This document shows, piece after piece, positions 33,501 through 42,500 of a DNA stretch of 64,000 nucleotides. Each line of letters starts with the position of its first letter. The stretch's first letter is position 1. Source of the stretch: Siphonodentalium dalli (lineage: Eukaryota; Mollusca; Scaphopoda; Gadilida; Siphonodentaliidae). Location of the stretch: contig CP136069.1 of NCBI GenBank assembly GCA_032622095.1, positions 156,415,043-156,479,042 on the forward strand, written 5' to 3'. The position numbers and the translations under genes were made by a program. Below the pieces are notes generated by a model. It saw only the letters and a list, made by a program, of their open reading frames with translations. It had not been told where the DNA came from and searched no databases.

Positions 33501-36500
33501 ATAATTCCCGTAATTTATTTAATGTATTACATTTATATCTTCAATATGTATTTAATCTATGTAATAATTTATTTATTGTCACGTATAATTACGATTACAA
33601 TGGAGAATTCATCGTGCGTGGTTGATTGAAAATCTACGGAATATTTTCACCGGAAAATGCCGAACGCAGTTCGCAAGGTCAACTGAGTTCGCATACTTTA
33701 AAAAATATGTAAACACTGCGGCAAAAGTTTCTTTTCACATTAAATTACCGCTTTCAATTCACAACCGATGTGGGTTTCAGATCAAATAGCATGTCTTCTG
33801 CGGAAACGATCCGTTTATTGTAGCAATTGTGATATTTTATTTCATATAATTGTGGTTTTATTTGAGCGGGTCACTAACGATTAACTCGTGTCAAAGGAGA
33901 CCATGGGCCTGGAACTCGGACTAAAGACCGGCACCTCCATCCCAATATCTTAGCCGGTTTTAGTACGAGAAGACTTGGACTACTGACCCCCCTGCCCTTG
34001 ACCAAGGGGGGGGGGGGGGGGCGAGCGGGGGCAGGACTTGCCCTTTTTCTGGAGACAGAAAATGCTTTTTGTGTGTTTAATCTCGTGTTTTTATAGCAAA
34101 ATGTGACATTTTTGGTCCAAATACCACCAATTTCACAAGGAATATTAATTTTTTGTCAATTTTATCACAAAACGGCCATTAAAACCGACAAATACCTTTA
34201 AAATAGGGATTTTTGCCACAATGAATATTTATGGTTATTTTCCCGAGTTTGCGGAGAAAATGCCCTTTTTTGCGGATAAGTGCCCTTTTTGTAGGCTCTG
34301 CCCCCCCCCTGCCCTTGGATGCTTCCGGCGCCCCTGTAGTAATGCGAAGAGTAATGTTTTTCATTGAAAATCATTCAAATTCGATAGCTCCCATCTAGAG
34401 GTGATCCTAAACATGGCTGTAACATTCAAAACAATTTTGCAATATATGCGGGCTGCAGGGTGTGCCAATTGAATTCAAATTTGAAAACCAAGATGGCTGC
34501 TGGTTGTCATGTTCTTTAAATAATTTCGGAAAGAATCTGTGACTCCCATCTAGATGTCACCTCAAAGATCTCCATGAAGTTTGGTGAGAGATGTGGCCTG
34601 TAGGGTGAGCTGAAGGATTTAGTCATGCAAAGATTAAAATCCAAGAAGGCCACTGGGGGCCATTTTTTTCATCGAAAATCGTTCAAATTTGGCTGTTGGC
34701 AGCCATGTTTTTGGACCAATTTCAGATAAATGATTAGCTCACATCTCAGGGTCACCCCAGATGAGGGGTGTGGTTTGCAGGGAGTATCACAGAATTTAGT
34801 CATGCTAAGAGTAAAATTCAATGTTTTTCAACGAAATTTCAGAAAATTTATGTATATCTTCCAGCGAGAGGTCAACATGAAGATCCATATGAAGTTTTGA
34901 AACGATCGGAGGAGGGATGTGGCCTGTAGGGTGTGCCAAATGATTTAGTAAAAGTAAATTCAAATATTTTGAATGTTTTCATCAAAAATCGTTCCAATGT
35001 TATAGCCGCAAAAAATGTGGGCTGCAGGGTGAGTCGATGGATTCAAATGTGAAATCTAGGCGGCTGGTGGCCATGTTTTTTTTAAACAAAATTCGGAGAA
35101 AAAAAATGGTATGCTCCCATTTAGAGGTCACCCCGAAGATCCATACGAAGTTTGGTAATGATCAGATGAGGGATGTGGCCTGTAGGGTGTGCTAATAGAA
35201 ATTTTTGACGGATGCATACATGGACGGACAAACGGATGGATGGATGACAACCCATGGCAATAGCTTAATTTGACGAGAGACCAATTTGAAGAGCTGATAA
35301 CTAATTTTCCACTAAAATAAACATTAGACATTATAGCAATCAGGCGACATTTTGTGAACTAATGTGAGAAAAATAATTACTTCATGGAAGCTTCAGTGTA
35401 GTCAGAAGTTTCAGCTCTCTGTCAAATACTGGTATATTGTTTCGTGATGATCCAAGGAAAGTACTACATGTACAAGCAAGATTAAACATTAAATTTTGCT
35501 TTACAGAAGAGGATATGTTTATTTTACTAACTTAGCTTTGAGCCCTAGGAGAACGGTTAACGTCTCTAAACTGAAATATCCCCTGTCGACGAAATCACCC
35601 TGAAATAGAAAATGTACATGTTAATATGTCTAATCACTAGAAGTCAATGGTTTGTTGGTATTGCAGACCAGTTTCGGTTTAGAATCAATGTGCATACATT
35701 TTCAGTTCAAATGATTATTCATCAAAGATAACGTCAAAGATAAAATCCATGCCACTCCTACCACCATACTGGTGAAGAAATTTATCTTATTGGTATATAA
35801 GGCCAAAGAAAATTAAATGTCTGGTGTGGGTTACAATCCCAAAAAACTAGGGTCGGTAGGTAGGCTTGAAATTTTTATTTTATTTTTTATTTTGACATAT
35901 CCTTATGACTTTTCATGTGCGTATTTTACTCTGCAAGATTGACATAAAACTACTTTTGATTATTTTTGTACAAATTTTAATATTACACAATACTTTTACT
36001 TAGAAATCAACCTATGCTTAAATGTGTTTTTTTGTGATTTATGAAATTTTTTGAGAACAAATTTAATAGATTTTCTTGAAAACCATGAAAAAAAACTTTA
36101 GGGTATGGGGTTTAAAATAGGGTCAATAGGGAAAGCCAAATCATAAATATCTTTGGCCTAAACAGTTCAATGAAAATGTCTATGATAGTGACACTTACAT
36201 GTAGCAGTTTTTTCCTGAAGTGGTCATAATCAAATATCACTCACCATAAAAATGTAATTTGTATCAGGCATCTGACCTCCTGTCTTGAACAGTTCCATCA
36301 AGTCGTAAAACTGAAAATAAATACAGGCACTGTCTCAATCACTTTGCTATGAAATTCACACAGGGAATGTACAGATAGTGGAGAACAAATAGGACTTAAA
36401 TACAGTAATGCACTAAATAATCGACTCCTTAACCACAGCAGAATTATGGGTAATTTTTCAGGATTTATTCGGAAATATGGCTTGTTGCCATTCATCGGAA

Positions 36501-39500
36501 AGCTCTGTGAGAGCTTTCCGTTGAATGACAACAAGCCATATTTCCGACTAAATCCTGAAAAATTACCCATAATTCTGCTGTGGTTAAGGAGTCGATTATT
36601 TAGGACATTACTGTAGCTTGCCATGGAGTGAAAGCCACATAGTATTCAACCCTTCATTATACTAATTTACAGCTTACAAATTTCCTGTTCTAATATCTGC
36701 CAATTAAAGTGAAGCCTTCGAAATTTGGAAAAATATCCAATGGCAAATTTAATGCTGTGTCATTATAGATTCCACATGTTGTCATATTGCCATGGCCAAT
36801 TTCAAGGACGGAAAAGAGAAATAAAACTTCATTTTTCATTAATCACATTTTATACAAGAATACATTTAGGGAACATTCATTGCAACAAGAATGAAAGTGT
36901 CAATGACACTGTAGCTCAACTTGGAAAGGGAATAATTTAATATATTACAGTCAATGGAGCGATTAGGAATGTGGAAAGTTGAATGTCTAATACTAGTTTA
37001 TAGACATGAAGAGAAAAGTAAAATCCAAGATGGCTGCTGGCGGCCATGTTTTCGGCCGAATGACCCCAAAATGAGTCGTTCCCATCTACATGTCATCGTT
37101 AACATCAATGACAAATTTTATGACGATCAGACTAAAGGTACGACCTGTAGCCCATGCTAAAGAATTTAGTCATACAAAGAGTAAAATCCAAGATGGCTGC
37201 TGGCGGCCATGTTTTTTGGCCGATTGACCCCAAAATGACTCGTTCCCATCTACATGTCATTATTAACATTCATGACAAATTTTATGATGATCAGACTAAA
37301 GGTACGACATGTAGCCCGTGCCAAAGAATTTAGTCATACAAAGAGTAAAATCCAAGATGGCTGCTGGCGGCCATGTTTTCGGCCGAATGACCCCAAAATG
37401 AGTCGTTCCCATCTACATGTCATCGTTAACATCCATGAAAATTTTTATGATGATCAGAATAAAGGTACGACCTGTAGCCCGTGCTAAAGGATTTAGTCAT
37501 ACAAAGAGTAAAAACCAAGATGGCTGCTGGCGGCCATGTTTTTGGGCCGAATGACCCCAAAATGACTCGTTTCCCATCTACATGTCAATATTAACATCCA
37601 TGACAAATTTCATGATGATCAGACGAACAGTGCGACCTGTGGCCTGTGCTAATGGATTTAATTTTGAAAACAAAGATGGCCACTGGCAGCCATGTTTTTT
37701 GTCTGAATGACCCCAAAATGACTCGTTCCCATTTATATTCCAATTTCAACAGCCATGAAAATTTTTATGATGATCAGACTAAAGGTACGACCTGTAGCCC
37801 GTGCTAAAGAATTTAGTCATACAAAGAGTAAAATCCAAGATGGCTGCTGGTGGCCATGTTTTTCGGCCAAATGACCCCAAAAGTACTCGTTCCCATCTAC
37901 ATGTCAATATTAACATCCATGACAAATTTCATGATGATCAGACGAACAGTACTAACTGTGGCCCGTGCTAATGGATTAAATTTTTAAATGCAAGATGGCT
38001 GCTGGCAGCCATGTTTTTTGTCCGAATGACCCCAAAATGACTCGTTCCCATCTACATTTCAATTTCAACAGCCATGACAAATTTTATGATGATCAGACTA
38101 AATGTACGACCTGTAGCCCGTGCTAAAGGATTTAGTCATACAAAGAGTAAAATCCAAGATGGCTGCTGGCGACCATGTTTTTTAGCCGAATGAACCCAAA
38201 ATTACTCGTTCCCATCTACATGTCAATATTATCATCCATGACAAATTTCATGATGATCAGACAATCAGTACGACCTGTGGCCCGTGCTAATGGATTAAAT
38301 TTTGAAATCCAAGATGGCCACTGGCAGCCATGTTTTTTGTCCGAATGACCCCAAAATGACTCGTTCCCATCTACATGTCAATATTATCATCCATGCCAAA
38401 TTTCATGATGATCAGACAATCAGTACGACCTGTGGCCCGTGCTAATGGATTAAATTTTGAAATCCAAGATGGCCACTGGCAGCCATGTTTTTTGTCCGAA
38501 TGACCCCAAAATGACTCGTTCCCATCTACATTCCAATATCAACAGCCATGACAAATTTTATGATGATCAGACTAAAGGTACGACCTGTAGCCCGTGCTAA
38601 AGGATTTAGTCATACAAAGAGTAAAATCCAAGATGGCTGCTGACGGCCATGTTTTTTGGCCGAATGACCCCAAAATGACTCATTCCCATCTACATGTGAT
38701 TATTAACATTCTTGACAAATTTTATGATGATCAGACTAAAAGTAGGACCTGTAGCCCGTGCTAAAGGATTTAGTCATACAAAGAGTAAAATCCAAGACGG
38801 CTGCTGGCGGCCATGTTTTTTGGCCGAATGACCCCAAAATGACTCGTTCCAATCTACATGTCATTGTTAACATCCATGACAAATTTTATGATGATCAGAC
38901 TAAAGGTACGACCTGTAGCCCGTGCTAAAAGATTTAGTCATACAAAGAGTAAAATCCAAGATGGCTGCTGTTTTTGGGCCGAATGACCCCAAAATGACTC
39001 GTTCCCATCTACATGTCAATATTAACATCCATGACAAATTTCATGATGATCAGACGAACAGTGCGACCTGTGGCCCGTGCTAATGGATTGAATTTTGAAA
39101 ACAGATGGCCACTGGCAGCCATGTTTTTTGTCCGAATGACCCCAAAATGACTCGTTCCCATCTACATTCCAATTTCAACAGCCATGACAAATTTCATGAT
39201 TATCAGACTAAAGGTACGACCTGTAGCCCGTGCTAAAGGATTTAGTCATACAAAGAGTAAAATCCAAGATGGCTGCTGGCGGCCATGTTTTTTGGCCGAA
39301 TGACCCCAAAATTACTCGTTCCCATCTACATGTCAATATTAACATCCATGACAAATTTCATGACGATCAGACGAACAGTACGGCCTGTTGCTAATGGATT
39401 GAATTTTGAAATCTAAGATGGACGCTGGCGGCCATGTTTTTTTTTCGTATGACCCTAAAATGAATCATTCCGGTACAAATATTGAAGTCAACAGCTATGA

Positions 39501-42500
39501 CAAATTTCATAATGATCCGATCAAAGGTACGACCTGTAGCCTCTATTGTTGATGCCTTACGCACACACACACGCACACACGGACGACGGACGACAAAGCC
39601 ATGGCAATAGCTCAAACTTTACAAAGTAAAGTTGAGCTAACAAGGGTTGGGCATCAAAGATGGATCTGGTCGAGTTTTTTTGCCTGTAAGAGTGAAACTA
39701 AAGAACCATAACTCAGAACTAAGGGCCATAACTCATGTAAAAACAATTGGACAAACCTGCTTTTCGAACTCAATCAAGTTATTTTTGTGAAAGATCGATA
39801 TACCAAATATAAATTAAATTGGTTGACATTTGTTCAAGTTATCGCGTTAACGGACATAACATTGCTATAAATAGAAACAAGTGGCATGACTCTGGTTAGA
39901 AAGTCGGGGTGGGTCTGATTTTCTGTGTGCAGCTGTCGCATGTGACAATAAACTCACAAACCACACAATGTCAGAATCCATCAATAAATGGCTATGTTAT
40001 ATAGGATTTGGGTCACATGCCTGCCAACCTCCCTCACAAGTTGAGTACTGATAAAAAAAAACTTGACTAAACATCTTAGGTAGAGTAATATCTCATAGAA
40101 ATGGTTCAGTTGTTTTTTCAAGATACATGTACATGAAATATAGTATACCGGATCAAGCCTGCACATAGTGTGTCTGTTATTTGCAGAATGAGGTCCACAG
40201 AGGGTGAATTTAGTGACTATCTCGCACGGTGGGCTAACATCACCAAATTCACCCTCTGGGAACCTTATTTTGGCTGTATATTGATATCACTCACCTGTCC
40301 ATGGATATCCCCACAAATAGTGACTGGTGTGGATACTGGCTGTATATTGTTATACATGTAACTCACCTGTCCATGGATATCCCCACATATAGTGACTGGT
40401 GTGGATACTGGCTGTACATTGTTATTCATGTTACTCACCTGTCCATGGATATCCCCACATACTGTGACTGGCGTGGATACTGGCTTAGTCTGGCTGTATG
40501 ATATCACTCACCTGTCCATGGATATCCCCACATACTGTGACTGACGTGGATATTGGCTCAGTCTGGCTGTATAGAGTTATCACTCACCTGTCCATGGATA
40601 TCCCCACATATTGTGACTGGTGTGGATACTGGCTGTACATTAGACTCTTCCAGCAGAAGCTCACAAACCATATCACATAATTTCTGTAATAGGGAAATAT
40701 AGAAGAACTTTACAGGTAGCAGCTTGATTGGTTTGTATGTAAATGTCACCAAGTCTATAGCTCAGTCCTTCAATTTTGAAAAATGTAGATGAACAGTAAA
40801 TTTTGCTTCTGATTTTGGACCCAGACACAATATTTTGTTTGTTGCAACTAGAGGAAATAACCCCTGGTATATACACATACACAGCCCTCATAGTTGGCTA
40901 TGAAAATCAGCCCTTGCCAAAGCCATTTTCTAAAGCAAACTGGGCGCCGGCAAATGGTTGCCATAGCAGATTGCCATTAAAGCCAAACAACCTGGATTAA
41001 AACGGCTGCGTACAGGTATATAATGCACAAAAAGAACATTGTTTTGAGATAATTTTAATAACTAGAACTTAATTAAACAAATTAAAGTCTACGTTATAAA
41101 ACCAGAACAGTTATCGGGCATCAGGTCAGACTCACAAAACGCACAAACATAAGAGCCTTGTGTTGGAATCATTGATGGGGGACAGTCCGAGGAATCGATT
41201 GTCTGAGAATTCAATAGTCGGATAACTGGAACAAGCAAGGCTGCAAATAGTGTGTCCGTCATTTACAGAATGAGGTCCCCCAGAGGGTGAATTTAGTGAT
41301 GCTATTGTGCACAGCAGGTTAGCTTCACCAAATTCACACTATGGGGACTTCATTCTGCTTAACCCTTTGAAAACGTTCATACACCCGACTGGCCGCAAAA
41401 GCGGCCAGCAGCATTCAGTGACATCATAAACCTATGTAGCATGTGTATACATGTTATAACCATTGGTATATCCACTTACATCTATGTAAATGATCCCAAG
41501 GAACTTCAGCAGTGCCATTTTTGCCGACTAGTTGGGGTACAAAAACATGCGCATGCGCACAGCGCAGAATTCAACAAACGTACATTATTTGAAGCGATTC
41601 GGGTAAAGCTCTACATTGTTGCGCGGTCCACAGGATTGTAGAAAGACACCATTTCGATCACTCTTTTGGTTTAAATTAGTATTGCATACATACTCAGTGT
41701 TCTGCCATATGTGAGGAAGGCGCACGCAGTTTCTTATTTGAGTCGATTTGTTTCGCGCATGCGCATAGGATAAAATGATAAATGTATGGGTTTTTGTGAA
41801 ATGATACAATCACATCAAGGATCTCCATAGTACATCAATTTGCGTTATACAGCTGCACGTTTTGACATTGCACCAGAGTAGTACTGTGGAAATGGGTTGC
41901 ATGGTCACAATACCATCTAGTCCGATCTACTTGCGCGTGCACATTACAAACACGTGGTCAAATCGTGCATTATTGAGCAATTATGTAAAGTTTAAGACTC
42001 GTGGCACCATTTGAACATGACCATCACCGTGCCCTATAGGCGATGTCTAAAACGGGACGTAATGCCATTGAATGCACAGGGAAGTGGTGTCATTCGATTA
42101 CTTGGGCTATATGCTTAGCAACCATTGATACCGTTAAATACAAACTACTTGTAGGTTCAATCTTCTGACCTGATGTATCTCCAGTTTCACAATAGGGTAT
42201 TGAATGCATAGAAAATGCCGTTTCTTAGCGCGGAATTATACGACGCTATAAGCTATAATTGCATTATACTTTCAGTTCCGGATAGTTGCTTAGAAACCGT
42301 TACCAGAGAGTGATCGTGTGTCAAAGTATACCGTTCTAAAAAATATACACAGTGGCCCATGGGAACATACCTGTACAATTTCAGACCTGTAGCACCATTT
42401 GAACATAACCATCAGCATGTGCATGCCAAGAATGTCTAAATTGGGACATAATACAATTGGATTCACAGGGCAATGGTGTCATTCGATCATTTGGGGTATT

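Follow-up and report, generated by a model that had tools for sequence, protein, structure and literature searches.

The PPP6C gene and the exon 2 array

The window, that is, the whole 64,000-nucleotide stretch of Siphonodentalium dalli DNA that was analysed, carries on its minus strand a PPP6C gene. A tblastn search with a sequence taken to be human PPP6C, which also served as the reference for comparison, located ten exons, and these were joined at their splice sites. The resulting model of 303 aa has an open frame, shares 86% identity with this human reference over 301 residues, and contains a Metallophos domain (Pfam, E=7e-43), as a complete catalytic subunit. The best PDB matches of the model are to the PP2A catalytic subunit, and a PP6 chain is absent among the best 60 of its 83 PDB matches; because the best solved structures are those of PP2A, the assignment to PP6 rather than to PP2A rests on the human reference sequence. 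Elsewhere in the assembly, matches to the protein lie on other contigs at 35-72% identity and were taken for other phosphatases of the family. Outside the array described below, the gene reads intact.

The array lies at the end of exon 2 (Table 1), where the codons for CGDIHGQ are followed by CAG/GTGAGT; the intron position after this motif is presumably old. A Pfam search with exon 2 alone gave no match, and short exons of such kind are easily missed. The repeat begins 54 bp within the exon and spans the exon-intron boundary, so that the last 45 nt of exon 2 are followed by four extra copies at steps of 76, 73, 72 and 72 bp. The donor is perfect in 5/5 copies, and the first intron bases after the five donors are, on the minus strand, 40587, 40511, 40438, 40366 and 40294. 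The TRF score of 466, with a period of ~72, excludes a chance origin; a stricter TRF run places the bounds at 40284-40641. In the window, CAGGTGAGT has five minus-strand sites, all inside the array, and one plus-strand site. Likewise, in the 2.23-Gb assembly the 21-mer TGTGGGGATATCCATGGACAG is matched exactly at five places, all of them in the array, and with 2 mismatches at one more. A search of the assembly with the whole 423-bp stretch returned no second array or parent copy, the single match being the stretch itself. The 8-letter TACAGCCA at the exon end recurs at the other array end (40278-40271), and it may be either the microhomology from which the array arose or a sixth copy truncated by the adjoining hairpin repeat.

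Table 1. Positions of the exon 2 array and associated features within the window
Feature	Position	Strand	Remarks
Exon 2 acceptor	40684..40701	-	Pyrimidine-rich; AG ends at 40684
Exon 2	40683-40588	-	Real exon; 96 nt, 32 residues, phase 0 at both ends
Whole tandem array	40275..40641	-	~5 copies of a 72-73 bp unit; TRF, looser scoring
TACAGCCA at exon end of array	40630..40637	-	Putative role
Donor 1	40582..40590	-	CAG/GTGAGT; sole donor joining exon 3 in frame
Copy 2 with donor 2	40506..40556	-	45-nt exon part (15 residues); +76 nt if used
Copy 3 with donor 3	40433..40483	-	Exon part (15 residues); +149 nt if used
Copy 4 with donor 4	40361..40411	-	Exon part (15 residues); +221 nt if used
Copy 5 with donor 5	40289..40339	-	Exon part (15 residues); +293 nt if used
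Hairpin repeat copy	40152..40272	-	Dispersed, ~120 bp; adjoins intron end of array
Exon 3	36245..36310	-	Phase 0 junction via donor 1

A second copy of the hairpin repeat is found at ~41236-41357; oriented alike, the two copies lie on either side of exon 2 and its array. The possibility that this repeat had captured the exon was rejected: among 3921 candidates in the assembly, the 40 best copies, which were those scored, match the query from ~position 29, over the hairpin only. One match extends slightly further than the rest, and the family is ~120 bp long, without the exon. Intron 2 also holds a satellite of ~164-bp units (14.8 copies followed by a further pair, window positions 37017-39537), 0.7 kb beyond the array.

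Two features lie further along the gene. PPP6C has two terminal exons on the minus strand, at 19586-19396 and 9033-8843, both with a TTTTCAG acceptor and in the same phase, and each closing intact with PYFL and a stop. Their comparison over 62 codons gives a dN/dS of 0.20 at a dS of 0.49, a low ratio which suggests that both are under selection, and they probably encode alternative C-termini. In exon 10a, Tyr stands in place of the Cys of NYCYRCGN. Intron 7 (28654-26881, minus strand) starts with ATATCCTTTT and ends with AC, with TCCTTGAC just upstream of the end; by the U12 consensus, it is presumably an AT-AC intron of the U12 type.

Consequences of the later donors and divergence among the copies

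Use of donors 2-5 would lengthen exon 2 to 172, 245, 317 or 389 nt, with 0/4 of these lengths in frame, and the frame of exon 2 meets a TGA at the tenth codon past donor 1, inside the first spacer. The candidate AGs within the array copies are preceded by 7-9 pyrimidines in 18 positions, compared with 14/18 at the real acceptor, acceptor strength being expressed here as a crude pyrimidine count with no splice-site model. Copies 2-5 do not qualify as tandem exons, since each is only part of an exon and lacks a good acceptor. The five CAGGTGAGT sites could in principle pair as intron ends, and no unit has a good acceptor. Given that the frame is open and conserved across all ten exons and that only donor 1 is in frame, donor 1 must presumably yield enough correct PPP6C mRNA.

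A sequence-only reading of this DNA had named the gene as PPP6C and the exon as its second, had described the exon end as present in five copies at 72-76 bp steps, each with a perfect donor, and had assigned an acceptor to the first copy only; the identity to the human protein, the coordinates and the pyrimidine counts, respectively, bear this out. Its prediction that all four additions listed in Table 1 would be out of frame and that a stop lies in the first spacer proved equally correct.

In the five-copy alignment, 6/51 columns are variable in the exon part plus donor and 16/21 in the spacer (Fisher p=2e-7). The last 27 nt through GTGAGT (20 nt of exon plus the donor) are invariant in 5/5 copies, a run that was matched or exceeded in 4 of 100,000 column shuffles. 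Taken alone, this pattern looks like constraint. However, the coding changes include residue replacements (in copy 2, V to I, P to S and I to V), and part of the spacer divergence is a length difference. The better preservation of the exon part and donor is not predicted by neutrality alone; a recent origin and the small numbers involved may account for it.

Donor-spanning arrays across the assembly

The whole assembly was searched with the words CAGGTGAGT and AAGGTAAGT for runs of three perfect donors spaced 64-89 bp apart. Triple-tandem matches numbered 402 for CAGGTGAGT, compared with 136 for the reversed word, and 245 for AAGGTAAGT, compared with 43. The matches listed, which reach into the middle of C4 for CAGGTGAGT and into C7 for AAGGTAAGT, comprise at least 16 arrays for CAGGTGAGT and at least 18 for AAGGTAAGT; these 34 were all fetched, the AAGGTAAGT arrays on the exon side. 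The first copy was judged to be the 3' end of an exon in 8/16 and 11/18 arrays, respectively (19/34 among the matches listed), by eye and not blind, from the sequence preceding the first donor, where an open frame and, in most cases, an acceptor could be recognised.

For 13 of the 19 exon calls (6 for CAGGTGAGT, 7 for AAGGTAAGT), Pfam or PDB provides support at E<0.01. The CAGGTGAGT exons match EGF_CA (2e-9), TSP_1 (5e-7), MFS_1 (9e-12), MBOAT (3e-6) and Ank (2e-9) in Pfam, and a further one is fucolectin-like, resembling the FBP32-like lectin (6e-7). The AAGGTAAGT exons comprise AA_permease twice (2e-5, 3e-5), EMP70 (0.002), dynein lid (3e-4), DONSON (3e-17), cytochrome-b5 reductase (9e-11) and STRAD (3e-6). 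The other six calls rest on reading by eye: L022 matches EMP70 weakly (0.063 in Pfam, no PDB match), L034 and L035 match zf-met weakly (~0.07), L038 reaches 0.076 to an unlikely Pfam family with no further database match, L023 has no Pfam or PDB support, and L046 has no Pfam support. L026 and L027 were regarded as doubtful and L051 as non-exon. Among the 19, L035 is a near copy of L034 and L041 of L040; these two near copies and the two doubtful arrays were left out of the divergence and frame tables. A home-made coding score was discarded, having given no value for the supported L020, L040, L043 and L050 and a fair value for the plain repeat L039; the exons were then called by eye, with Pfam and PDB as checks. 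L043 and L022 (C3:22.222-22.227 Mb) are donor-spanning arrays at two different exons of a single TM9SF-like gene, and their first donors are ~3.7 kb apart.

In 18/18 arrays, that of PPP6C among them, the repeat begins 16-63 bp within the exon and continues past the boundary into the intron. The unit length is a multiple of 3 in 5/17 arrays (p=1.0 against one third), and in 13/17 no later perfect donor can be reached in frame without a stop, the sequence compared covering the first copies only at several loci; at least one in-frame, stop-free extension is possible in L030, L032, L046 and L050. L046 and L050, the latter STRAD-like, have units of 36 and 42 nt, and their copies contain no stop in the frame of the exon; length-variable proteins would be possible there if later donors were used.

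Exon parts are better kept than spacers in 8 of the 13 arrays that have a spacer (p=0.30), which shows no better preservation of exon parts in the class as a whole. The earlier proposal that unequal divergence of exon part and spacer would indicate constraint gives a positive answer in PPP6C but not in the class. Preservation of the donors slightly exceeds that of spacers (11/13, p=0.009) and of exon parts (8/13, p=0.010), in arrays that were themselves found by their donors. Donor decay is evident in some arrays, perfect donors persisting in 3/17 later copies of L023, 14/23 of L024 and 10/14 of L022.

A mirror form exists at the acceptor. The acceptor test used one 9-mer in tandem and gave 30 matches, most of them in one dispersed ~85-bp family. 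L106 is a doubtful candidate. The clear case is L105 (C4:15738900-15740700), in which an exon start with TTTTGCAG/G is present in 11 copies and the last copy opens the exon, which is dynein heavy chain 2-like, of an axonemal dynein (PDB 3.6e-30, Pfam 8e-18).

As a control, the reversed-word tandem search gave 13 arrays among the matches listed, one of which overlaps L031; the other 12 were fetched. None of these 12 looked like an exon edge, as judged by eye, in a set that amounts to ~8 families and by design cannot contain the donor word. Single CAGGTGAGT sites number 11,860 in the assembly, compared with 10,234 for the reversed word. Among 40 isolated CAGGTGAGT sites, which are the first on C1 after omission of sites with close neighbours and hence not a random sample, ~12 (range 11-13) resemble donors of host exons and ~6 lie in apparent mobile-element coding sequence. 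Relative to these sites, the proportion of arrays on exon ends gives p=0.22 for 8/16 and p=0.035 for 10/16, when the two doubtful arrays are included. Real donors may thus be somewhat over-represented in arrays, perhaps two-fold.

Origin and persistence of the arrays

We consider it likely that the PPP6C array is a donor-spanning minisatellite, one example of the class, and that its extra copies are largely neutral intron. A unit made up of the final ~54 bp of exon 2 with ~18 bp of the intron would have been duplicated in tandem and would then have expanded by slippage or unequal exchange. The copy adjoining the exon body would retain the acceptor, the coding sequence and the donor whole, with each added copy landing on the intron side. 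Because the unit contains the exon-intron boundary, the exon and its first donor would stay whole and the additions would be intronic; since the boundary is rebuilt at the exon side, such a duplication would pass selection, and one within the exon would not. With the first donor in use, the extra copies would be spliced out with intron 2, and they would drift and homogenise like any intronic minisatellite. An identical filter would operate at other exon edges, on the donor side and, at least once, on the acceptor side, which would account for a layout that recurs in unrelated genes, at both edges and regardless of frame. The suggestion in the sequence-only reading that an exon is becoming a minisatellite through recent tandem duplication was thus the better of its two alternatives with regard to the duplication; the exon itself is not converted, as it keeps both splice sites.

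The other alternative was that the copies could act as decoy donors and yield non-productive mRNA. In a regulatory form of this idea, donors 2-5 would sometimes be used, the resulting stop-containing mRNA would be destroyed, and PPP6C output would be tuned in this way. This appears unlikely. The four later donors are perfect and all frame-shifting, a TGA lies in the first spacer, and the run of donor plus 20 nt of exon is rarely equalled in shuffles, all of which would suit a decoy. However, the layout is shared by many unrelated genes (it was judged present in 19 of 34 other arrays among the matches listed, which gives no support to a decoy special to PPP6C) and is seen in mirror form at an acceptor, exon parts over the class are kept no better than spacers, donors decay in some arrays, and unit lengths are patternless. 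A regulated decoy in PPP6C is possible but unsupported.

It seems improbable that active 5' splice sites are hot spots of tandem duplication, through U1 binding, RNA-DNA hybrids or transcription-linked breaks, for example. The excess of triple-donor matches over the reversed control, the 8-10/16 arrays on exon ends versus the isolated sites, and the 0/12 control arrays that looked like exon edges are consistent with such targeting. Nevertheless, the enrichment is at most about two-fold and carries no significance under the stricter count, the match counts are inflated by long arrays, the controls have the limits of number, judgement and design given above, and an array exists on the acceptor side too.

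A far less credible account is an extra coding exon, in which donor 1 would be joined to an AG in a later copy, adding 15 in-frame residues. The stretch CCAGTATCC...GGACAG measures 45 nt with phase 0 at both ends, and ACAG precedes the unit in copies 1, 4 and 5, but the candidate acceptors are pyrimidine-poor compared with the real one and copy 2 bears replacements. An assembly artefact behind the five copies is just as remote, as these differ by substitutions and by one length difference, and the same anatomy is present at many independent loci with diverged copies.

Returning to the donor-spanning minisatellite, the notion may tentatively be widened. Exon-edge minisatellites could persist genome-wide through a first-donor rule of the spliceosome of this animal, touching perhaps hundreds of exons, those of single essential genes included; the figure is extrapolated from searches with two 9-mer donor words over a single range of unit lengths. 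A first-donor rule, such as first-come commitment or strict exon definition, would here hide 2 to 23 further donors, many of them perfect, a short way downstream. In mammals, the choice between proximal and distal competing 5' splice sites is described as regulated (PMC5585400). We know of no rule from the mammalian work on competing 5' splice sites by which the first of five identical donors wins.

The closest precedent is the human IFI6 minisatellite, in which two downstream units are reported to serve as donors, with three mRNA species as the result (PMC4526556). In both cases a tandem repeat at an exon end has units that carry splice donors; the downstream donors of IFI6 are reportedly used, whereas the extra donors of PPP6C would break the frame. 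The IFI6 unit is ~12 bp long, compared with ~72 bp, including active-site codons, in PPP6C. Furthermore, the layout recurs in many genes here. Intron gain by tandem duplication (the Rogers model and duplication-born introns; PMC4974935, PMC2891723) is similar in that duplication copies splice signals, one copy becomes an intron and the protein can stay the same; it differs from PPP6C, where the duplication crosses an existing boundary and lengthens the 5' end of the intron, with no new intron. Tandem exon duplication and mutually exclusive exons (PMC9013439) likewise involve tandem exon copies in one gene, whereas copies 2-5 of the array are neither whole exons nor provided with a good acceptor; the two terminal exons of PPP6C fit this scheme better than the array does. 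No genome-wide report of exon-edge minisatellites was found among the matches listed in searches of open-access papers.

It is striking that such genes remain functional in spite of several consecutive perfect donors. A minisatellite can evidently start from coding sequence and leave the protein unharmed, provided that its unit includes a splice boundary, and the exon-derived repeats are a trap for annotation, as they resemble extra exons. If later donors are used, the arrays would be many unstable switches, in which changes in copy number alter gene output. If the first donor is used, each array would constitute a natural test of 5' splice-site choice among identical competitors at fixed spacing, a competition that is usually built by hand in minigenes.
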